Below, in pieces: positions 42,252 through 54,817 of a stretch of 64,000 nucleotides of DNA. Positions within the stretch are counted from its first letter, which is position 1; every line of letters begins with the position of its first letter. The stretch is from Methanococcoides methylutens MM1 (GTDB taxonomy: Archaea; Halobacteriota; Methanosarcinia; Methanosarcinales; Methanosarcinaceae), in the NCBI RefSeq assembly GCF_000970325.1, contig NZ_CP009518.1, positions 2,232,001-2,296,000 on the forward strand. Direction: 5' to 3'. The translations under genes were made by a program, and so were the position numbers. The notes below the pieces were generated by a model that was given only the letters and a program-made list of their open reading frames with translations, searched no databases and was not told the DNA's origin.

Positions 42252-43736
42252 TTAAAAATTAAACATTTTCCTTATAAGTAACAGTGTTTCATGATTTAAG
42301 CGTTTATCAACAAAATATACCATAATGAGGAAAAGTAAAAAACCTATGATTGAAACTGATACAAAACCTATAAATTCACTTGTATCAATGACAAGTTTTA
42401 AAATAACTATAGATGCGACCATAGTTGTTCCGATCATCAAAGGGTAAACTAATTGTTGAACGAATTTTTTAATTCCACATTTTGTAATCTTTATAACATC
42501 AAAAATAAGTCCTAAACCACAAATAAAAATACTTAAAAAAACCACGAATGAAGCCCCCAAGAGTTCCCATTTTATAGTAAAAGGATAAATTAAGACAGCT
42601 ATAACAAACAAACGAACTATCTGCCATTTAGTATCTATTTTAGGTTTTCCAACGGCGTAAAATATAGGACCTGCAGTTGCTGCCAGAGATCGTACTAATC
42701 CTGCAAAAACCAACACTTGCATTACTGGTACCATAGGCAACCATTTTTCTCCTAAAAATATTGTTGTAAAATCATAAGCTAAAATAAAGATTAAACCAGC
42801 GATTGGAAATGATAGGAATGTAGTAAACTGAAACACTCTCAAATATGCTTCTCTCAATTTGGGGATATCGTCTTGTATTTTTGAGTAGACCGGAAATGTT
42901 ACCTGCGAGATTACATGAGTTATTTCTGTCGCAGGCAAATTCGAAAGCTTATAAGCCATTTGATAAAACCCTAAAGCAGTTACACCTAATAGCCTTCCCA
43001 CTAAAATATCATCACCCTGAGTAACTAAAAATATTAATGCACTTGACCCTAAGATCCATTTTCCATATCCAAAAAGTTCCTTTCCCTTTCCAACATCGAA
43101 ACTCAAATGTGGCCTATAAGGGTGTATGAAGTAACTTACAACAAACATCACCATATTGCCTGCAAGTAAACCAAATACAAGAGCCCATACATTACCTAAG
43201 ATTAAAACTGCAACAACAGCTACAATAAAATCTGCCAATGTACCACTTAATTGGTAGAAAAATTGTTTATTGAACTCTAATTCCTTTTGGAAATGGATTA
43301 CACCAATATTAGTAAATGCTTGGAAAACTATCGAAAGACCAATTACTTGTATTATTGGTTTCGCCTCCGGTGCATCGAAGAAGGTTGCAGCGTAAGGTGC
43401 AATTAAATATAAGATAGCAAATAGGATAAGACCACGCAGGATTAAAAAAGTCCAAGCACTGTTCAAATAAGGCTTAATATCGCATTTCTTTTGAATTAGT
43501 GCTAGTTGGAATCCTGTTTGTGAAAATGTCTCCAATGTTGCCATTGCTAAGAGTGCGATGCCCATCAGACCAAAATCATTAGGTGCAAGAATGCGAGCAA
43601 GAATCACAAGTCTTGCTAAGCCAAACAATTGTTGTACTACTCGAAGTAAAAATACCCAAACACCACTTATAATAGCACGTTGAGACAGATCTTTTTCAGA
43701 ATGTTTTATGTTATTAGTGGTTTCATTTTCTGTCAT
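42252..43736 (-). CDS. Wzx-like flippase (MOP superfamily, polysaccharide transporter)
   Basis: 494 residues with 12-14 membrane helices. AIISGVWVFLLRVVQQLFGLARLVILARILAPNDFGLMGIA (seen in parts) is the WzxC/polysaccharide-synthase N-terminus, and repeated FGYGKWILGSSALIF, GRLLGVTALGFYQMAYKLSNLP is typical of WzxC-like proteins. It would flip a lipid-linked glycan across the membrane. Last gene of the rmlC-B-D-A-wzx unit; gap of 7 nt after rmlA. Confidence 0.9.
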   Translation of the reverse strand: MTENETTNNIKHSEKDLSQRAIISGVWVFLLRVVQQLFGLARLVILARILAPNDFGLMGIALLAMATLETFSQTGFQLALIQKKCDIKPYLNSAWTFLILRGLILFAILYLIAPYAATFFDAPEAKPIIQVIGLSIVFQAFTNIGVIHFQKELEFNKQFFYQLSGTLADFIVAVVAVLILGNVWALVFGLLAGNMVMFVVSYFIHPYRPHLSFDVGKGKELFGYGKWILGSSALIFLVTQGDDILVGRLLGVTALGFYQMAYKLSNLPATEITHVISQVTFPVYSKIQDDIPKLREAYLRVFQFTTFLSFPIAGLIFILAYDFTTIFLGEKWLPMVPVMQVLVFAGLVRSLAATAGPIFYAVGKPKIDTKWQIVRLFVIAVLIYPFTIKWELLGASFVVFLSIFICGLGLIFDVIKITKCGIKKFVQQLVYPLMIGTTMVASIVILKLVIDTSEFIGFVSVSIIGFLLFLIMVYFVDKRLNHETLLLIRKMFNF

Positions 43737-43743
43737 TTATATC

Positions 43744-44454
43744 TTATTGTTTTCTTTCGTTCGCAACGATATTTCCCGCCTTCAACAAGCTCTCAAAAGT
43801 CCCCGCATCGCTCCAGAATCCATCAAGCACCTTACACTTCATGGCTCCATTATCAATGTAGTAGTTATTCACATCCGTGATCTCAAGCTCTCCCCTACCC
43901 GAAGGCTCAAGCGTTTTGATAACTTCAAAGACCTTATTGTCATAGATATACATACCTGTAACTGCATAATTGGTCTTTGGAACTTCAGGCTTTTCCTCGA
44001 TGCCTATCACTTGGTCACCGTCCAGTTCTGCCACACCAAACCTGTTAGCATCAGTAACTTCTTTGAGGAAAATCCTTGCACCGCCTTTGAAGCTTTCGAT
44101 GTCTTCTTTGATGCTATCCTGGAATATGTTATCGCCTAGTATTACGGTCACATCATCGTCATCGGCAAAATCCTCTACAAGGCCAAGGGCCTGTGCAATA
44201 CCACCGGCTTCCTCCTGTATCTCATACGTAAGCCGGACTCCAAAATCTGAGCCAGATCCAAGGAGTTCGAGGAAGTGGCCTGCATGCCCCCTGCCTGAGA
44301 CGATCATTATGTCCTTGATTTCTGCATCGACCAAGGTCTGCAGCGGGTAATAGATCATTGGCTTGTCATAGACTGGCAAAAGGTGTTTGTTTGTCACTTT
44401 TGTAAGGGGGTACAACCTGCTTCCTGTACCACCTGCAAGTATTACTCCTTTCAT
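43744..44454 (-). CDS. rmlA: Glucose-1-phosphate thymidylyltransferase
   Basis: 236 residues. GVILAGGTGSRLYPLTKVTNKHLLPVYDKPMIYYPL, VILGDNIFQD and EEKPEVPKTNYAVTGMYIYD are RmlA/RfbA hallmarks. Reaction: dTTP + glucose-1-P to dTDP-glucose, the first step to dTDP-L-rhamnose. It is shorter than the bacterial homotetrameric form (about 290), as often in archaea. It overlaps the rmlD stop by 4 nt. Confidence 0.95.
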   Translation of the reverse strand: MKGVILAGGTGSRLYPLTKVTNKHLLPVYDKPMIYYPLQTLVDAEIKDIMIVSGRGHAGHFLELLGSGSDFGVRLTYEIQEEAGGIAQALGLVEDFADDDDVTVILGDNIFQDSIKEDIESFKGGARIFLKEVTDANRFGVAELDGDQVIGIEEKPEVPKTNYAVTGMYIYDNKVFEVIKTLEPSGRGELEITDVNNYYIDNGAMKCKVLDGFWSDAGTFESLLKAGNIVANERKQ

Positions 44455-45260
44455 GTTTTCCTCTCCTTCAGGTAATCATCTAGTGCTTCTTTCCAGTCCC
44501 TCATAGGACTGGTTTTAGTGTTAGTCAGGACTGAATATTTGGGACGCTTTGCTTTTCTTGGGAACTCATCACTTGTGCATGGGACAGCATTGTCTATGAT
44601 CTCGGATGCAAACTCATACCAGGAACATACACCTTCATTGGTTATGTGGTATATTCCGGGTCCAAGATCGATCATTTCTCTGGTTTTATGGGCCAGATCC
44701 ACTGTATATGTTGGTTTTCCGAATTGGTCATTGACAACTTTTACGTTATCCAGCTCTTCCGATAATCTCAACATCGTTTCAACGAAATTTTTCCCGTTGG
44801 AACCAAACAGCCAGGATATCCTGATAACCCTATAATCGTTCAGATTTTCGATTATCTTTTGTTCGCCCATGAGCTTTGATTGGCCATACAAATTGATGGG
44901 ATCTGGTTCATCTCCTTCCGAATACTCATCCTTTGAGCCGTCAAACACATAATCTGTGCTGAAATGGACCATTTTGGCTCCTGCATTTGAACAGGCTTCT
45001 GCAACATATCCGGGTCCATGCCCATTGACAGCAAAGGCAAGGTACTCATCGTCCTCACAGCCATCCACATCAGTATATGCAGCTGCGTTTATCACAACAT
45101 CGGGATTTATCTGCCCGATCGTTTGTACGACCTCATCCCGCTTTGTAATATCAAGCTCCTTGCGTGTTAATTGTACAGCATCCGGGAACACCTTACAGAG
45201 ATCCGTGCCGAGCATCCCCCCGGCTCCAATGATCACTGTTTTAATGGTTCCCACCACCAT
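44451..45260 (-). CDS. rmlD: dTDP-4-dehydrorhamnose reductase
   Basis: 269 residues, extended SDR. VIIGAGGMLGTDLCKVF at the NAD(P) fold, VINAAAYTDVDGCEDDEYLAFAVNG, FSTDYVFDG and the YGQSKLMGEQ active site (Tyr, Lys). It catalyses the last step, reducing dTDP-4-keto-L-rhamnose with NAD(P)H. The ATG at 45258-45260 has a weak ribosome site, and the conserved KTVIIGAGG core begins only at codon 7, after an ATT; the exact start is unsure. It overlaps rmlB by up to 28 nt. Confidence 0.95.
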   Translation of the reverse strand: MVVGTIKTVIIGAGGMLGTDLCKVFPDAVQLTRKELDITKRDEVVQTIGQINPDVVINAAAYTDVDGCEDDEYLAFAVNGHGPGYVAEACSNAGAKMVHFSTDYVFDGSKDEYSEGDEPDPINLYGQSKLMGEQKIIENLNDYRVIRISWLFGSNGKNFVETMLRLSEELDNVKVVNDQFGKPTYTVDLAHKTREMIDLGPGIYHITNEGVCSWYEFASEIIDNAVPCTSDEFPRKAKRPKYSVLTNTKTSPMRDWKEALDDYLKERKT

Positions 45261-46189
45261 TTATTCTCTTTATACCAGCTAATCGTATGCTCCAGAGCGG
45301 TATCAAAATCATATGCCGGATTCCATCCCATTTTTTGGAGTTTGCTGCAGTCAAGGGAATACCTGAAATCATGCCCTTTTCGGTCTTCCACATATTCGAT
45401 CATGGATTCATCATATCCAAACGCTTCAAGGAGCCTGTGAGTGATCTCAAGATTGGTAAGTTCATTCCCACCGCCAATATTGTAGATCTGTCCGGGATTT
45501 CCATTATGAAGAACAAAATCCACAGCTGAACAATGGTCCTCCACATAGATCCAGTCCCTCACATTTAATCCGGTCCCGTAAACCGGTACTTTTTCACCTT
45601 CCATGAGTCTGCTGATGAAAAAAGGAATCAGTTTCTCAGGGAACTGGTAGGGACCGAAATTGTTCGTACACCTTGTTACTGTAACCGGAAGACCATGTGT
45701 GATATAATACGACATTGCCAGCAGGTCAGATCCGGCTTTGCTTGAAGAATATGGACTTGAAGGATTCAGCATGTCTTCTTCAACAAAAGAGCCTTCCTTA
45801 GTGCTGCCATACACTTCGTCAGTGGAGATGTGAATGAACTTCTTGATATCATTTGCAAGCGCACTCTGAAGAAGGTTATTGGTGCCAAGAACATTCGTCG
45901 ATACGAAAACCGAACAATCTTCAATCGAACGGTCCACATGGCTTTCAGCCGCAAAATGGACCACCTGATCGACTTCTTTCATCACTTCATTTATAATGAC
46001 AGGATCACAGATATCTACTTTAACAAAAGAGTAATTAGGGTTATCCACAACATCTTTAAGGTTCTCGGGATTTCCTGCATATGTAAGTTTATCAAGATTT
46101 ATGATTTCATAATCAGGATATTTTTCCAGCGTATAATGAATAAAATTGCTGCCAATGAATCCACAGCCGCCTGTCACTAATAATTTCAC
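45233..46189 (-). CDS. rmlB: dTDP-glucose 4,6-dehydratase
   Basis: About 318 residues. LLVTGGCGFIGSNFIHYTLEKYP, LDKLTYAGNPENL, VVHFAAESHVDRSIED, HISTDEVYG and the YSSSKAGSDLL active site are RmlB hallmarks. It makes dTDP-4-keto-6-deoxyglucose. The start GTG at 46187-46189 follows AAGGTGAT with 5 nt spacing; the earlier GTG at 46198 overlaps that ribosome site. Tail end encodes WWEPLKQ. Confidence 0.95.
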   Translation of the reverse strand: MKLLVTGGCGFIGSNFIHYTLEKYPDYEIINLDKLTYAGNPENLKDVVDNPNYSFVKVDICDPVIINEVMKEVDQVVHFAAESHVDRSIEDCSVFVSTNVLGTNNLLQSALANDIKKFIHISTDEVYGSTKEGSFVEEDMLNPSSPYSSSKAGSDLLAMSYYITHGLPVTVTRCTNNFGPYQFPEKLIPFFISRLMEGEKVPVYGTGLNVRDWIYVEDHCSAVDFVLHNGNPGQIYNIGGGNELTNLEITHRLLEAFGYDESMIEYVEDRKGHDFRYSLDCSKLQKMGWNPAYDFDTALEHTISWYKENKWWWEPLKQ

Positions 46190-46241
46190 TCGTATCACCT
46201 TAAGACATATTTTATGGATCTTTTTTTATTCAAATAGAGAG

Positions 46242-46796
46242 TCAAAAGTTCATTTCGGCGTTTTTCATTTCCGGAAGAATATTATCTTTTCCAGAAACAT
46301 TTATATCGCAGTCTTTTACTTTCCAGTCAATGTTCAATAATCGGTCATTGTATAAAATCCCTGTTTCAGATTCCGGATGATAATATTCATCGCATTTATA
46401 CGCAAAAACTGCAGATTCGCTCAAAACAGAAAAACCATGTGCAAAACCTTTCGGGATCAAAAACTGTCTTTTATTTTCAGCAGAAAGTTCAACTCCAAAC
46501 CACTTCCCAAAAGTTGGAGAACCTTTTCTAAGATCAACTGCAACATCATACACTTTCCCTTGCAGCACCCGAACCAATTTTGTCTGGCTATAAGGAGCTA
46601 ATTGATAATGGAGGCCACGAATAACCCCATAGGAAGATCTTGATTGGTTGTCCTGGACAAAATTGAATTCCATTCCGGTCAAATCATCAATTATCTTTTT
46701 ATTGTAGCTTTCGAAGAAATAACCTCTGTCATCCTCAAATACTTCAGGCTCAATAATAAAAAGATCACTTATCCCAGTCTCTATCAACGTCATCAT
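46242..46796 (-). CDS. rmlC: dTDP-4-dehydrorhamnose 3,5-epimerase
   Basis: 184 residues, cupin fold. DLFIIEPEVFEDDRGYFFESYN, QDNQSRSSYGVIRGLHYQL (with the catalytic His in GLHYQ), GKVYDVAVDLRKGSPTFGKW and FLIPKGFAHGFSVLSE. It converts dTDP-4-keto-6-deoxyglucose to the L-rhamno ketosugar. Start at ATG 46794-46796 (GAGAGTGA upstream). First gene of the rmlCBDA operon. Confidence 0.95.
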   Translation of the reverse strand: MMTLIETGISDLFIIEPEVFEDDRGYFFESYNKKIIDDLTGMEFNFVQDNQSRSSYGVIRGLHYQLAPYSQTKLVRVLQGKVYDVAVDLRKGSPTFGKWFGVELSAENKRQFLIPKGFAHGFSVLSESAVFAYKCDEYYHPESETGILYNDRLLNIDWKVKDCDINVSGKDNILPEMKNAEMNF

Positions 46797-47216
46797 AAAA
46801 TTCACTCTCGCTCATACTCATCATCAAACCGAACAACATAATCTTCTCAAAGCTGTGCTTAGATCTCAAAAAGCAACTTCTTGGGATTCGGAAACCCGTG
46901 TTGATACAAACACTTTGATGAACATACTCTTGCAATCATTTTCAACACACACCCTATTCTTTCGAAAATAATCAAGTATTAACTCCTATCATTATACATT
47001 TGAACACTCATTTGCTTTTAGGGAATACAATTATGTCCTTAAACGTGTCCCTTTCTCAATGTTAAATACATGTTAATTATGCTTATTTTCATACTAATAT
47101 GGAGTTATGTTAACAGTTAAAGATTGAATGATATTTGTAGTAGCCTTCAATATTTTTGTTGTTTTTGGTCCTCAATAGCTAAATTGTTACTAATCCATTA
47201 ATTTTGGAAATCTATA
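46797..47216. other. 420-nt AT-rich intergenic region upstream of rmlC
   Basis: Contains the rmlC control region (minus-strand ribosome site near 46800-46808) and otherwise AT-rich DNA without a convincing ORF, RNA or repeat. It separates two same-strand genes with different base composition, so it may mark a junction in the mosaic. Confidence 0.4.
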
Positions 47217-48734
47217 TTAAGTATATTCAAATCTATAAACTCTTATGTTCTCATCAGAGCCATCAGGGATCAAAATCATAGACTGATCTATATGCTCAAT
47301 TACTTCTGGGTCTGAAAAATAGGAATTCAGCTTTTGATCTGCAATTACCCATCCATTTTTATTATTTGTTTCATCTTTAAACATATCATAATCTTTGAGT
47401 ATGATCACCCCTGTATATCTATCTCTCAAAATTCCATCCATATCCTCAAAAGCATAGTACTCATTTTGTCTGAGCCAGTAATCAGTATACCCCAGATAAT
47501 ATAAACTACATATCGGCATTGTGCTGAGTATCACATCATCTTCAACCATGTTTTTCTGAACGTACTCCGCTGCATGTTGCCAATTTGGATGCGGAGTTTC
47601 ATAAGGGAGAGGTTGATAATCATTGCTATTTAATTCATATAAACCAACACCATTGGGAATCAAAAATAATAAAATTATGAGCATAGGGGCATATTTACTT
47701 ATTAATTTGCAGTTAACGTGATTAATCCTCTGCAATAATTCAAATATACCATTCGAAGCGAGTGCAATAAATAAAGGATATATGAAAAACAAGTATCTTG
47801 TACACTTGGAATCAAGAAATAATGTTAGAAGGACAAATGGGACAAAGAATCCTATCATAATGACTGAATGATCATAATTCTCTTTTTCGGAGTGAAATAA
47901 TGAAAAAAATACAAAAAATGAGAGAATGGGGAAATATCTGATAAGGAAATGTGCATAGAAATCCAATCCCATTCTCATTCCAATTGGCGTATATTGAGGT
48001 GCAAATGGAATATTTTCAATTAGAACATTAATGAGAACTAAAATTATAGAAATGGTAACAATAAAAAAAAGCGAGCTATGTTTTGTATCAAATAAGTTAT
48101 TCTTGGCAGCAACCATTTTAAAGACCAGATATGCAAAATAAGAGAAACCAATAGGAAGAAATAGAATATAGAACTGGTGTACATAATAGGTCAATATTAT
48201 AATTGCAATCGATGCTAAAACCAGAGCAATAATTTTTTTGTTATTTTTTTCTTTTTGCACATTCTTTGGTACAAGTTCTTTGGAGAGTTCATACACTATA
48301 AATAGAAATGTTACATAGAGAAACTGTAATAGAATATACATCCGAGCATTAACAGACCAATAAATTTGCCAGGATGAGATTGATAATAGAGCCACAGTAA
48401 CAAGGGCAACTTCTTGCGACAATACAGCTTTTATGAAGAAATAAGTAACTATTAGGGACAAAATTCCAATAATAATAAATGGTAGTCGAGCTGTAATTTC
48501 AGAAACACCAAATAATTTGAAAGAACCTGCAACAAGTAATGTGGTTATGATAGAACGGTCATAAGGAATCTCTGACGGCAATAAAGGTTCTCCAGTTTCT
48601 AAGATACCAATTGCAGCGAAAACATGAAACATCTCATCTACCCAAAACTGTAGTGGATTAATTAGCCTAATTAAAGCTAGAATTGAAAAAATAGATATTG
48701 GAAGAAGAAATAAGTAATTTTTTTTGAGATTCAT
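47217..48734 (-). CDS. PMT/ArnT-like membrane glycosyltransferase
   Basis: 505 residues, about 11-12 membrane helices. The first loop carries the acidic WVDEMFH motif, as the DE motif in GT39/GT83 (PMT_2) enzymes; it is followed by LARLPF-like ITARLPFIIIGI and a C-terminal soluble part ending VIEHIDQSMILIPDG. Such enzymes use a polyprenyl-phosphate sugar on the outer face. Sugar and acceptor unknown; it may modify the glycan outside the cell. Low G+C. Confidence 0.8.
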   Translation of the reverse strand: MNLKKNYLFLLPISIFSILALIRLINPLQFWVDEMFHVFAAIGILETGEPLLPSEIPYDRSIITTLLVAGSFKLFGVSEITARLPFIIIGILSLIVTYFFIKAVLSQEVALVTVALLSISSWQIYWSVNARMYILLQFLYVTFLFIVYELSKELVPKNVQKEKNNKKIIALVLASIAIIILTYYVHQFYILFLPIGFSYFAYLVFKMVAAKNNLFDTKHSSLFFIVTISIILVLINVLIENIPFAPQYTPIGMRMGLDFYAHFLIRYFPILSFFVFFSLFHSEKENYDHSVIMIGFFVPFVLLTLFLDSKCTRYLFFIYPLFIALASNGIFELLQRINHVNCKLISKYAPMLIILLFLIPNGVGLYELNSNDYQPLPYETPHPNWQHAAEYVQKNMVEDDVILSTMPICSLYYLGYTDYWLRQNEYYAFEDMDGILRDRYTGVIILKDYDMFKDETNNKNGWVIADQKLNSYFSDPEVIEHIDQSMILIPDGSDENIRVYRFEYT

Positions 48735-49147: not shown

Positions 49148-51895
49148 ATGAGTTCAAACTTAGCCTTCAATAAAGAAACTATTGAAACACTTACAATCGA
49201 AATTTCCAGATTGCCCACCTATATAGATTTCTATATAGGGATAGAAAAACTGCTCTGCTTTCTATTCATATCTGCATACATTTATGGCTTCTTCTATATT
49301 AGAGACCGGAATAAAACGGATGCCATTCATACCAAGAGATCGAAGAAACTGATAAACTATGTATTATATGCCCTTATATGCAGTGCTATATTCTACTACA
49401 TTCCATACTTCATCTCAAGCAGTGCAGCGCTACCTATTGTAACAGCAACCTTTGCCCTCGGTCTAACCATATTGTACCTGCAAAGGTCGGAAAAGAGATT
49501 ATCATATACATTACACCCAAAATGGATCAGGAGGTCATATGTAATCGACCATGAGAAAATCTATGAATTAATCTCATTTTTGTTCTATGGTCTGCTGTTG
49601 TTGTCCATTTTGAACATGATGGTACATCCATACTCTTCTGAAAGTGTAAGCTCACAGGCAACAAAGGTAATCATCTCCTTTGGAATCTTTTCCATATACA
49701 TCAACAGAAAACAGGTATGGAATCATCTACAAACCATTCAAGAGACTGATCCAAATGATTTCAGATTTAAAAACGTTGGTACCTTTGCAATATATCTGAG
49801 CAGGGAATTATTAATACCTCTTGTCCAGTCTACCAGAGAGTTTGATCGAACAAATCCCAGACATGAAAGGATTAATAGTATCATCTCTCATACATTTATG
49901 GGACTGCTTTTAGTTATTGCAATACAATCAAACTCATCATTATTGCTACCTGAAAGATTAAAAACACCGATAACCCTGGCAACCTTCATCCTCGGTGTGA
50001 CCAGCTATTACCTGAAAAGAGTCAGACCAATCTCCCCATTAATGCATGAAATGGATAATGAAGGTAAACAAGAATTCATATACGAAAGATTTGATGATAC
50101 CATTACCTATGCATCTTACCTCTTGCTGACCTTTACCCTATTATACCATCTCCCATGGTCACTCGGCGACTTAAAAACAGAGATAATAATAGCTGCTATT
50201 CTTTTTGGTGCTTTAACCTTCTATTTGAACAGAGAAGAGCTTAAAAGGATCGAGGAAAGAATATGCCAGGAGAAGCTTGATGAGAAAAAGCGGGAGAAGG
50301 AATTTGCTAAGAAGTACCCTCGGATTAACCAGGTGTGGGGAATGCGGTGGATTGGAATAGAAATTTATAAGGAAGGATGGTTGTACAGCGGGACCTTAAT
50401 TTCAATTGTTTTGATCGCATTTATAATTCGAATCTGGAATTTGACCATATTAGACCCATATACTGATGAATATATACATTTAGTTGCAGCAAATAATCTA
50501 ATAGAAATGGGAGAAACCAGTTATACAAGAGCTTTTCTTGTGACACATCTTGTAAAAATATTTTTTATAATTGGAAATGCTACATCATTTTATGAATATT
50601 TATTTTGGGGAAGAGTACCAGGAGTTATTTTTGGTGCTTTAACAATTATTCCATTATATTATTTAGCCAAAAGAATTAATAAACCAGTTGCAGTTATTAG
50701 TGGAATTTTATTTGCGATTTCGCCTTGGGCAATCGGTGTTTCAAGAAATATAAGAGAGTATACTTATTATCTTTTTTTCATTTTAATAGCTTGTTTAATT
50801 CTGATTAAAATGCTTGAATACTCTTATGATAATAGCAAGAAAAACACATTTAAACTTGGAATATATTCTTTTGTATTAATTGGTTTTTTATATTACTCAT
50901 CTAAAATAGATTACCTATCCTCTCTAAAAATTTCATTTTTGATATATCCAGTAATACTATTTTATTTTTTATTATTTAATTACCAGAAAGTGTTGACAAA
51001 TATTAATTTTAATAAAAAAATATATTATGTGTATTTAATAATATGTTTGTTATTTGGAGCTTTTCTATTAGATTTTATAATAAATAATTTTCAGGTTTTA
51101 TTTGGAAATGTAGAAAAAACTGAATTATGGTTTAATTATTTTTTTAAATCTAGCGGAAGCCCTATGCAATGGTGGAGCGACTCAGTATTTACTTATATCG
51201 CATATTTAGTATTTAGTATTGGATTTATTTGTGCATTATATACTAAAAAAAGAGAATATTTCATGCATTTTCTTATATTTAGTGCATTCATAATATTTTT
51301 TGTATTCTTTTTTAATCGATATGCAAGTCCAAGATACATTTTTTATGCCCTTCCGTTTTTTTGTATTCTTATTTCTATGAGTATTTATTCATTAATCAAT
51401 TTAAAAAAGGTATTTAGTAAATCTTATTCAAAAATAGCATATATTGTTGTTTTGTTTTTAATCATTTCTTCGATATTTAATATTAATAATACGATTTATC
51501 CAATTACATCTGATAAACATGGCTATGTTAAAATGACAGGCGAACATCATGATAAAGCAAAAGATACTATACTATTTCTAGAAAATGAAATTCAAGAAGA
51601 AGATGTATTTATAACAACAATATTTGGTCCAGTAATACAGCTCGCATTCGATATCAATATTAATGAAGAAAATAACCATCAATATATATATCGTGATAGC
51701 GAAAGATTTGATCGAGTAGAAGAATTCATGGAAAATAATTCTCAAGGATTAATGATCCTAGACTGGAGAAGAAATGGTTATTGGGTCAACGGCTATCCTA
51801 AAGAGGGGGAGTTTAAAGTTGGTAATATAACTGTAAAAACATTACAAAATAAAGACGGAATACAAGTTTATAGATGGAAGCATGAATGGAATTAA
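49148..51895 (+). CDS. Large membrane glycosyltransferase with repeated N-terminal membrane module
   Basis: 915 residues in two very different halves. Residues about 30-400 are four (perhaps five) copies of a two-helix unit, each closing with a G/S-x-x-x-Y-L/I-x-R signature: GLTILYLQR (105-113), FSIYINRKQ (181-189), GVTSYYLKR (283-291), GALTFYLNR (354-362), separated by charged loops. A charged helix (about 367-400, KLDEKKREKEFAKKYPR) leads to residues about 420-915, a PMT_2/ArnT-type glycosyltransferase with the acidic DPYTDEYIHL motif (436-445) in its first loop, LFWGRVPGVIFGALTIIPLYYLAKRI and a soluble C-terminus. Composition drops sharply in G+C near 50,400, just at the domain boundary. 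Probably transfers a sugar from polyprenyl phosphate; the role of the repeat module is unknown. Confidence 0.7.
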   Translation: MSSNLAFNKETIETLTIEISRLPTYIDFYIGIEKLLCFLFISAYIYGFFYIRDRNKTDAIHTKRSKKLINYVLYALICSAIFYYIPYFISSSAALPIVTATFALGLTILYLQRSEKRLSYTLHPKWIRRSYVIDHEKIYELISFLFYGLLLLSILNMMVHPYSSESVSSQATKVIISFGIFSIYINRKQVWNHLQTIQETDPNDFRFKNVGTFAIYLSRELLIPLVQSTREFDRTNPRHERINSIISHTFMGLLLVIAIQSNSSLLLPERLKTPITLATFILGVTSYYLKRVRPISPLMHEMDNEGKQEFIYERFDDTITYASYLLLTFTLLYHLPWSLGDLKTEIIIAAILFGALTFYLNREELKRIEERICQEKLDEKKREKEFAKKYPRINQVWGMRWIGIEIYKEGWLYSGTLISIVLIAFIIRIWNLTILDPYTDEYIHLVAANNLIEMGETSYTRAFLVTHLVKIFFIIGNATSFYEYLFWGRVPGVIFGALTIIPLYYLAKRINKPVAVISGILFAISPWAIGVSRNIREYTYYLFFILIACLILIKMLEYSYDNSKKNTFKLGIYSFVLIGFLYYSSKIDYLSSLKISFLIYPVILFYFLLFNYQKVLTNINFNKKIYYVYLIICLLFGAFLLDFIINNFQVLFGNVEKTELWFNYFFKSSGSPMQWWSDSVFTYIAYLVFSIGFICALYTKKREYFMHFLIFSAFIIFFVFFFNRYASPRYIFYALPFFCILISMSIYSLINLKKVFSKSYSKIAYIVVLFLIISSIFNINNTIYPITSDKHGYVKMTGEHHDKAKDTILFLENEIQEEDVFITTIFGPVIQLAFDININEENNHQYIYRDSERFDRVEEFMENNSQGLMILDWRRNGYWVNGYPKEGEFKVGNITVKTLQNKDGIQVYRWKHEWN

Positions 51896-52106: not shown

Positions 52107-53288
52107 TTATAAATGATTATTCGAACTATTAATCCATTTTAGGATTTTCTTCACCCGAGCATCCCACGTAAAATTATTGATTTTTGTCAAGTTATTATGT
52201 TGCAAATCCACCTTTTTCTCAATATCATTAAGAAGACAGTAGATTTGATTAGCAAGATCTTCACTATTCTCTGCTTCAAAAAAAACTGCATTAGTTTCGT
52301 CTAATATTTCTCTCATAGCAGGTAAATTTGAAGCAACTATGGGCAAACCACATGCCATATATTCAAATAATTTTAATGGTGATGTATATTTGGCCCCTAT
52401 GGCAGTTTTTGCGTTAGGAATTACACCCATATCGGATAATTTCAACAGTTCTACAACCTCAGATTGTGATACAAAACCTTTTAAAATAATATTTTTTTTA
52501 TTAATATGCAGATCATCAATTAATTGTTCTATTCTCGCTATATCTCCTAATGATCCTCCAACTAAGATTAGCTTCGTGTCATCACACATAGTAGAAATAG
52601 TTGCATAAGCTTTGATTAAAAAATCTACGCCTTTCCATTTTTTGAATGATCCAGCATATATTATTATTGAATCGGCGCCTTTAATACTATGCTTCTCTCT
52701 CAAAAACAGCTTTTCTGGTAGATTATTGAATAAATCCATGTTAACTCCATCAGCTGCGACATATATTTTATTTGTTTTTATTCCCAAATTTTGAATTAAA
52801 TCGATTTTAATACCGTTTGAAATTGGAATAAATAAATCAGGTACTTTTAATGCTTTTCTCTCATGAGCGAGAGAAACTTTACTAGAACTTTTGTGGTAAA
52901 TTGTATGGGGCTCATATATTATTTTTTGTTTTGGCCTCAGAAAACATGGTAAATTGGATATGAAATATATAAAAGAGAAATCTCTAGTATATATATAGTC
53001 CACATTCAAATAATTAAGGACGACTAATGATTGGATGCAATATATTCCTCTTAAAGCAAATTCAATAAATTTATTCTTAGTAAATAGTAAAGTTAACAAT
53101 CGGACATGATAAAAATTATGGCTTAAACCAAAAAAATCCAAACGTCTTTTTAAATCGCTTTTTTTTATATAGCCAGATAAAAAATAAACTTCTGAATATT
53201 TTGTGAAAGATGATACCATGTTGAAAGTTTGGTTTACATTTGCTGAATTTTTGTTTAAATCATTAAAATACACATAAGCTAGTTTCAT
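52107..53288 (-). CDS. Glycosyltransferase family 4 (AT-rich)
   Basis: 393 residues. Acceptor domain with NVDYIYTRDFSFIYFIS and IIYEPHTIYHK; donor domain with IIYAGSFKKWKGVDFLIKAY and LFEYMACGLPIVASNLPAMREIL. The E-x7-E motif is partial (KTAIGAKYTSPLKLFE), common in this GT4 subgroup. Last gene of an eight-gene minus-strand series; it overlaps the flippase gene by 4 nt. Confidence 0.85.
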   Translation of the reverse strand: MKLAYVYFNDLNKNSANVNQTFNMVSSFTKYSEVYFLSGYIKKSDLKRRLDFFGLSHNFYHVRLLTLLFTKNKFIEFALRGIYCIQSLVVLNYLNVDYIYTRDFSFIYFISNLPCFLRPKQKIIYEPHTIYHKSSSKVSLAHERKALKVPDLFIPISNGIKIDLIQNLGIKTNKIYVAADGVNMDLFNNLPEKLFLREKHSIKGADSIIIYAGSFKKWKGVDFLIKAYATISTMCDDTKLILVGGSLGDIARIEQLIDDLHINKKNIILKGFVSQSEVVELLKLSDMGVIPNAKTAIGAKYTSPLKLFEYMACGLPIVASNLPAMREILDETNAVFFEAENSEDLANQIYCLLNDIEKKVDLQHNNLTKINNFTWDARVKKILKWINSSNNHL

Positions 53289-54817
53289 TTTTTAAAGCTC
53301 CACGGTAGAAAACTTAAATTTAGTCCTGTAATTTCTCTTACTAGTTTACAATCATATTCTGTGAAGAATCTAGAAACAAATAATATAACTATATAGGCTA
53401 TGATTAGTATAATTGATATAAATAAATTATAAACTAAAAAAGTACTTTCCAACAAACGATAAATTATAAATATAACTAAAATTAAGAAGTAATTTTTTAT
53501 AAGATCATTTATCGGTAATTCAATTTGTATGTATTTTTTAATTTGATAATAGGTTAATATATAATAAATGATCATTGAAAATAATGTTGCTAGTGCAGCA
53601 CCATTTATGCCATAAATTGGAATAAATAAAAGATTAAGTATTATATTTAGTAGCGTTGAAAGCATCATACATTTTGAGTTAATTTCGGGCTTATTAATAC
53701 TCATTAAAGCAAAAATAAGTACCATAAAGGGCAAAAATAAAAAAATGATTGAAAGAATCTGCAAAACTGTGCTTGCTAGATTATATTCTGATCCATAAAA
53801 AGTTAAGATGATATTTTCAGAAAAAATAAATACAAAAAAAGTAACTATGCATAAAGGGACACAAGAGATACGTATTATATTATTGAGTATAAATGATACT
53901 TTTTGTTTATCATTTGTAGAAGCTAATTTTGTTAGAATTGGATAAATTATTTCATAAAAATAACGAGGAATCTGTCGAATAGCTTCAAATAAAGTATATG
54001 CTACAGAATAAATTCCTACTGATGACGCAGTTAAAAAGATACCAATTAAAAATGAATCCCCCCACGTATGAATTTGGTTTCCAATGTTTATGATAAAAGA
54101 TCTTTTCCCAAAATCCCATATATTTGTCAGAGTAGGTAATAAATACATAGATAATGTCATAACATTTAATTTGATATTTTTTTTAAGTATGATTAAGGCT
54201 AAGATAAAAGTTAAAAAAGAAGCAACGACAATTCCTTCTGTAATTCCTATAACACTCCGCGTATAATAAAATCCAATATATCCAAATAATAAAAAGCTGA
54301 ACCGACTAAAAATTATCAGAATCGCGCGACATTTAAACAATTCCAAGCCTAGTAGCACTCCCTTGATATTAGAAATGCCCAAATAGAAAAAAAGGTATAG
54401 TGAAAAGTATTTAAAAATAATTTCGGCAATAACCACATTACTTTTGCTCACATTAAATATCTGATTTACAAAAAAATGTGATAATAAATATAATCCTAAA
54501 GCTAAGAAAACTGCAATGATTATGCTAACGAATAAATTCATAACAATATGTACATTTCTTTTCTCATGAGAATCATGATAAAAAGCCACAAAATATGAAG
54601 CAGTGGATTCAACGAATGATGCTACAGATGTTGCTAAAACAACTGCAACCAATAGGCCTAATTGAAATAAACCGAATAGTTCTGCACCTAAAATTTTAGC
54701 AAATATGATGGTATATAAAAATAAAAAGAGATAACCAACAAGCTGCCCAAATATATTATAAATTGAATTTTTAAATATACTTGATTTCTGTGTATTATGA
54801 TTATAATTTCTTTGCAT
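53285..54817 (-). CDS. Second Wzx-like flippase
   Basis: 510 residues, about 14 membrane helices. SIYNIFGQLVGYLFLFLYTIIFAKILGAELFGLFQLGLL is the typical start of PST/MATE-like oligosaccharide flippases (shown in part here), with GIYSVAYTLFEAIRQIPRYFYEIIYPIL and a C-terminal helix cluster. It is distinct from the WzxC-like protein at 42252-43736, so the locus encodes two flippases. Low G+C. Confidence 0.85.
   Translation of the reverse strand: MQRNYNHNTQKSSIFKNSIYNIFGQLVGYLFLFLYTIIFAKILGAELFGLFQLGLLVAVVLATSVASFVESTASYFVAFYHDSHEKRNVHIVMNLFVSIIIAVFLALGLYLLSHFFVNQIFNVSKSNVVIAEIIFKYFSLYLFFYLGISNIKGVLLGLELFKCRAILIIFSRFSFLLFGYIGFYYTRSVIGITEGIVVASFLTFILALIILKKNIKLNVMTLSMYLLPTLTNIWDFGKRSFIINIGNQIHTWGDSFLIGIFLTASSVGIYSVAYTLFEAIRQIPRYFYEIIYPILTKLASTNDKQKVSFILNNIIRISCVPLCIVTFFVFIFSENIILTFYGSEYNLASTVLQILSIIFLFLPFMVLIFALMSINKPEINSKCMMLSTLLNIILNLLFIPIYGINGAALATLFSMIIYYILTYYQIKKYIQIELPINDLIKNYFLILVIFIIYRLLESTFLVYNLFISIILIIAYIVILFVSRFFTEYDCKLVREITGLNLSFLPWSFKK

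Follow-up and report, generated by a model that had tools for sequence, protein, structure and literature searches.

The gene at positions 49148-51895 (+) of the window, by which we mean the whole 64,000-nucleotide stretch of Methanococcoides methylutens MM1 DNA analyzed here, raises the question of what a repeated membrane module is doing in front of a glycosyltransferase, and whether the two parts of the encoded protein share a history. The gene is a single uninterrupted open reading frame of 915 codons encoding 915 amino acids, and the archaeal source genome consists of one contig of 2.39 Mb. In order, the protein comprises a half repeat, four two-helix repeats, a charged linker, and a GT-C glycosyltransferase with a PMT/ArnT/AglB fold, an arrangement that we read as a chimera of a membrane-repeat module and an enzyme.

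Judging from the gene content of the window, a surface-polysaccharide island surrounds this gene. Sugar-nucleotide genes at 43744-46805 were read as rmlABCD from their sequences, and the island also holds family-4 and family-2 glycosyltransferases, methyltransferases, and a mannose-phosphate enzyme. The neighboring gene (47217-48734, -), which is divergent from the chimeric gene, encodes a PMT_2-like GT-C protein of 505 amino acids without the module, and relatives of this neighbor at 54% adjoin module-bearing genes in L011, L012, and L078 (L numbers refer to relatives compared below). No RNA families around the locus and no tRNAs across the window were found. Two differing Wzx-type flippases are also present in the island, at 42252-43736 and 53285-54817, about 10 kb apart and with G+C of 0.34 and 0.26, respectively.

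The earlier note had described the N-terminal part as repeats ending in a Y-L/I-x-R signature. All four of the signatures it quoted (GLTILYLQR, FSIYINRKQ, GVTSYYLKR, and GALTFYLNR) are present in the protein, and the copies can be aligned. Two hairpin HMMs, trained solely on hairpins from proteins of other genomes, recovered four copies: residues 66-113 (49343..49486, +; ending YLQR; 10-20 bits), residues 141-189 (49568..49714, +; ending YINR; the weakest copy at 1.6-5.7 bits), residues 243-291 (49874..50020, +; ending YLKR; the copy nearest the relatives at 28-33 bits), and residues 324-371 (50117..50260, +; ending FYLNR; 22-31 bits). Together, the N-terminal part scored 54.5 or 70.4 bits with the two models, far above the best of 1000 local shuffles that preserved the local hydrophobic pattern (11.7 and 10.9 bits), while each of 59 other membrane sequences used as controls gave at most one match above 4 bits. 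A half repeat ahead of these, consisting of a single helix that ends in YIRDR (residues 23-52; 49214..49303, +), is our own reading by eye together with a helix at residues 23-52 in a low-confidence model, and is unscored by the hairpin model; adding it to the four hairpins gives a count of nine helices for the module. The repeats thus span residues 23-371, each copy being closed by Y-x-x-R, rather than the whole of the first 400 residues as first described; residues 362-410 form a linker. The loops on the Y-x-x-R side contain 34 Lys/Arg between them, against 3 in the four short loops opposite, and we therefore read the Y-x-x-R face as cytoplasmic. Such an orientation would suit a GT-C enzyme, in which the first helix begins on the cytoplasmic side and is followed, outside, by the Asp-Glu pair.

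No family in Pfam, NCBIfam, or the PDB sequences covers the module, which bears out the initial impression that the repeat belongs to no known family. DUF2178 (PF09946) was considered as its origin and set aside as weak: the proximal hairpin of several modules gave E values of 0.02-0.07, modules of relatives scored 13.7-15.5 bits against a cut-off of 22.8, the window protein had no match, and the profile-profile probability was 34%; moreover, the DER...EKA signature of local DUF2178 proteins is absent from the module. Structure prediction of the repeats, which had been suggested as a check, produced pairs of helices with a long linker helix behind them, albeit at low confidence (AlphaFold pLDDT mostly 30-50 for this region of the window protein and 56 on average for the module of L081), and a fold search with these low-confidence models returned no match.

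Another candidate that we tried was GtrA, in which case the module would be a carrier-handling, flippase-like domain fused to a GT-C enzyme, and one protein would both flip and use a lipid-linked sugar. Two-helix repeats ending in (F/Y)-x-N-R are reminiscent of GtrA, and in gtr clusters GtrA is paired with a specificity-determining GT-C enzyme. Against this, the profile-profile probability with four archaeal GtrA domains was 1.2%, seven modules gave no Pfam match to GtrA (PF04138) at E values up to 10, and a helix number ranging from 1 to 9 is hard to square with a transport fold. A GtrA origin for the module was accordingly rejected, and we regard this explanation as very improbable.

The module leads into a charged linker helix and a short juxtamembrane helix (residues 362-410; 50231..50377, +), the feature most widely shared among relatives. 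Its consensus, EKKRExEFxxKYPxINxxWGxRWIxKWxYKEG, is the best conserved section of the module-bearing proteins, more so than the repeats. The remainder of the protein (residues 411-915; 50378..51892, +) was assigned as the glycosyltransferase half by fold search and alignments. AlphaFold modeling with eight sequences gave a whole-protein pLDDT of 48, with core residues 380-560 mostly at 60-89, and a Foldseek search with the enzyme model retrieved AglB (E 2e-4) followed by PglB, ALG9, PMT, and ArnT, all with probability 1.0. These predictions place the C-terminal half in the GT-C superfamily by fold, in agreement with its original description as a PMT/ArnT-type enzyme. An acidic motif is found in the first external loop, where a D440-E441 pair, invariant across the aligned relatives, is the putative catalytic motif. 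This fold is shared with the PMT_2/ArnT/PMT/AglB enzymes (PF13231), as is the Asp-Glu pair that follows the first helix of the enzyme, whereas the module-less GT-C homologs compared have neither the N-terminal module of membrane repeats nor the linker. At the level of curated families, the C-terminal half exceeded no cut-off: the window protein had no match to PMT_2 (PF13231), although several relatives exceed its cut-off, and it scored 16 bits against the curated cut-off of 126.25 bits for TIGR03663 (Agl23).

The earlier note had reported a drop in G+C near 50,400, at the domain boundary. Maximum likelihood placed a change point in GC3 at codon 437 (50456..50458, +), from 0.39 to 0.13 (p<0.005), so the drop is present at silent sites. 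An explanation without exchange would be a single ancestral fusion in which the enzyme half evolves faster and owes its AT-rich codons to its membrane-helix content. However, under the codon usage of the module, a GC3 of 0.42 would be expected for the enzyme half, and 0.17 was observed, indicating that amino-acid content does not account for the drop. In GC3, the enzyme half is similar to the AT-rich genes of the island between 52 and 58 kb (0.19-0.23), and the module (0.41) is intermediate between the window's core genes (about 0.45-0.60) and the genes of the island (0.19-0.27). The proposal that the module is the older, host-derived part is therefore borne out only in part, the module being nearer to the core genes yet below them. 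The break also recurs: a GC3 step within 65 codons of the join (p<=0.01) was found in nine genes (the window gene, L009, L013, L072, L073, L074, L076, L079, and L086), a significant step away from the join in L075, and no significant step in another nine (L010a, L010b, L011, L012, L032, L033, L051, L077, and L078). The break in L086:3-2168, from 0.68 to 0.20, falls inside the linker, ahead of a long-type linker that it has in common with L013.

More direct information on the history of the two halves came from splitting the proteins at the YKEG motif and comparing the halves separately by identity. Shared N-termini with distant C-termini were found, as were similar C-termini behind different N-termini. 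The modules of L072 and L079 are 73% identical but their enzymes 24%; for the L079 enzyme, the counterpart in L073, which is from another archaeal family, is closer at 57% identity. Likewise, L013 and L032 share 70% in the module and 26% in the enzyme, and the L032 and L033 enzymes are 54% identical. Conversely, L011 and L051 share 68% in the enzyme and 41% in the module, and L010b and L072 share 53% in the enzyme and 33% in the module, with unequal helix numbers. Approximately unbiased (AU) tests on the enzyme data rejected the module groupings L072+L079 (p 2e-41) and L013+L032 (p 3e-5), as well as the five Methanosarcinaceae modules together (p 8e-4); on the module data, L073+L079 was rejected (p 0.009) and L032+L033 was not (p 0.41). 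As these groupings were picked after inspecting the pairwise identities, the smaller effects need caution.

The DNA itself also contains breakpoints. L072 and L079 have a DNA identity of mostly 0.8-0.9 over a region that begins 2.3 kb upstream and runs to codon 160; beyond it, identity is at chance level, the homology stopping at a single base after GAGAAAAAGCGG. Identity likewise drops sharply at the join in L009/L013 and L013/L032. In L011, L012, and L078, homology stops upstream of the module gene, implying that there the whole gene was exchanged and not the enzyme half alone. For the window gene, a same-genus comparison through the neighboring gene retrieved relatives of only 25-27% identity; it shows the composition break alone, and with no close relative its chimeric origin is argued from that break and from its relatives, and we infer its breakpoint. 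Given that the main incongruent pairs come from separate assemblies and that the window genome is a single contig, assembly chimerism is unlikely.

A fusion without exchange could still appeal to the fact that the enzyme halves all appear to be GT-C and that many pairs are only 20-26% identical. However, enzymes that are 53-68% identical stand behind modules that are 33-49% identical, across genera and families, the AU tests reject congruence, GC3 is much lower than amino-acid content would dictate, and homology ends abruptly within the gene. This account is already contradicted and has hardly any probability left. Module and enzyme have separate histories, and the chimera first suggested from composition gains stronger support from phylogenetic incongruence, from the DNA breakpoints in relatives, and from the recurring composition break.

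We also asked how widely the module occurs. Residues 1-417, searched against 112 genomes of the family, matched proteins of about 600-740 amino acids through the last hairpin and linker, and a model of this stretch (A1) had matches in 17 of the 238 class genomes searched. The distribution is patchy and limited to one archaeal class; in an even draw of 393 genomes of the phylum, matches were confined to the window's own family. The module was found, for example, in Methanococcoides seepicolus, in an ANME-2 cluster archaeon, and in Methanosarcinales metagenome-assembled genomes; several of the relatives were drawn from metagenome bins. The number of module helices per protein varies from 1 to 9, with one in L010, L011, and L012, four in L009, L013, L072, L076, and others, six in L073, and nine in the window protein, and at least six enzyme types were found behind the module. 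The earlier note had suggested looking for the module without the enzyme, and no such case turned up in searches with the linker model (238 class and 393 phylum genomes), the hairpin model (238 genomes), and a further module search (186 genomes): strong module matches all lie within GT-C frames, every matched frame of sufficient length runs on into a GT-C-like enzyme, and the single short frame (G131) is truncated where its contig stops. On inspection, weak and short module matches (L138, L141, L142, L145, and others) resembled chance hits. Conversely, the neighbor at 47217-48734 and the nearest module-less GT-C proteins have no module, so it is no standard component of this family of enzymes. 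One module gene, L086, comes from a bin labeled Deltaproteobacteria, and its neighbors resemble archaeal genes; it is probably a misbinned archaeal contig.

Taken together, we favor, with a probability of roughly two in three, a "polymorphic" GT-C family of Methanosarcinales and relatives, with a constant anchor, exchangeable catalytic halves, and docking to a fixed partner. A constant N-terminal module of one to nine helices, mostly two-helix hairpins with Y-x-x-R ends predicted to be cytoplasmic, precedes catalytic domains replaced through horizontal transfer, and a charged, presumably cytoplasmic linker helix leads into the first helix of the enzyme. Of this picture, the data demonstrate the repeats, the common module, and the swapping of catalytic halves where linker and enzyme meet. 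The gene probably sits at the border of an island of surface-glycan genes, where recombination within the conserved flank and the module may import a new enzyme together with island genes, and the exchanged half would determine the sugar transferred. Since the cytoplasmic end of the module and the linker stay constant while the enzymes vary, the module might dock each new enzyme on a fixed host partner, the least certain step; candidates are a flippase, the machinery for lipid-linked sugar donors, or another membrane enzyme such as the neighboring GT-C protein. The scaffold role proposed earlier for the module is compatible with such docking, while the alternative proposal of a lipid-carrier receptor found neither support nor contradiction in these data. 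A bolder version, in which this undescribed module is a universal socket that accepts nearly any GT-C domain by in-frame recombination, yielding serotype-like glycan switching, with hairpin number changing through duplication, is more tentative and in our estimation falls somewhat short of even odds.

The most serious competing explanation is that the module has no role, being the final conserved segment ahead of a hypervariable island, kept as a homology arm, with the fused membrane part merely tolerated. The unbroken block of identity formed by module and flanking gene in L072/L079 and L009/L013, and the location of the gene at island edges, would both be expected. However, dN/dS for the module was 0.15-0.33 in four pairs (simple Nei-Gojobori estimates, some with high dS), indicating purifying selection on the protein and thus more than DNA homology. 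Moreover, the flanking genes differ across several archaeal families while the linker amino acids are still conserved, and the reading frame and cytoplasmic end are retained despite changes in hairpin number. We therefore consider a homology arm without other function unlikely; under the polymorphic-family reading, the purifying selection is consistent with the module serving fixed machinery.

Related arrangements have been described. In Neisseria, PglB and PglB2 have a common N-terminal domain, and replacement of the C-terminal enzymatic domain at the protein-glycosylation locus alters the glycan (PMC11130364). In that system an enzyme, a phosphoglycosyltransferase, makes up the constant part, and two alleles are described, whereas here the constant part is a membrane repeat module with no catalytic sign, followed by at least six enzyme types. 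Phage tail fibers likewise combine a constant N-terminus with exchanged C-terminal domains. Polymorphic toxins have a constant N-terminus for a fixed machinery and C-terminal functional domains exchanged by recombination (PMC3482391); by comparison, the part exchanged here is a multi-helix membrane glycosyltransferase rather than a toxin or receptor-binding domain, and a search of the window genome for silent or standalone enzyme cassettes found none at E 1e-5. In the N-glycosylation islands of Haloferax, the surface-glycan genes of close strains vary through transfer and recombination, and the passages of that work considered here describe changes in gene content and recombination within genes; a fixed module combined with exchanged catalytic halves is not among the cases they report (PMC5867893). 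A literature search, with most subscription journals outside its reach, found no account of the module or of a GT-C enzyme swap. The diversification of archaeal surface glycans, which can be read by viruses and mating partners, is poorly understood. If our reading is true, it would provide a simple genetic device for glycan diversity, in which large membrane enzymes are swappable as domains in nature, and exchange could alter the cell-surface sugars of methane-metabolizing archaea. The module also serves as a marker of such loci and is a candidate adaptor for coupling glycosyltransferases to a host assembly.

While comparing the loci, we also noted several features of their surroundings. In L011, L012, and L078, from three species of one genus, the flank is more than 90% identical, with three different module genes at one site. 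In L075:7494-9902 and L077:5479-8247, also from a single genus, the flanking genes are 83-100% identical at the protein level, the module genes differ in orientation and their enzymes are 29% identical, and both enzymes carry a C-terminal extension resembling a carbohydrate-binding domain. L033:8999-11770 and L051:1976-4687 have long, masked-looking stretches (G+C 0.02-0.03) beside the module gene, where relatives have the surface protein mentioned below. On two contigs of one assembly (G021), L013 and L014 carry the same module and surface-protein genes, reflecting either a recent duplication or an assembly effect. Finally, a LamG/CBM-type secreted surface protein (62-73% identical) is encoded divergently from the module gene in L009:5287-7878, L013:9552-12065, and L032:9654-12179, and is a possible acceptor or partner for that enzyme.
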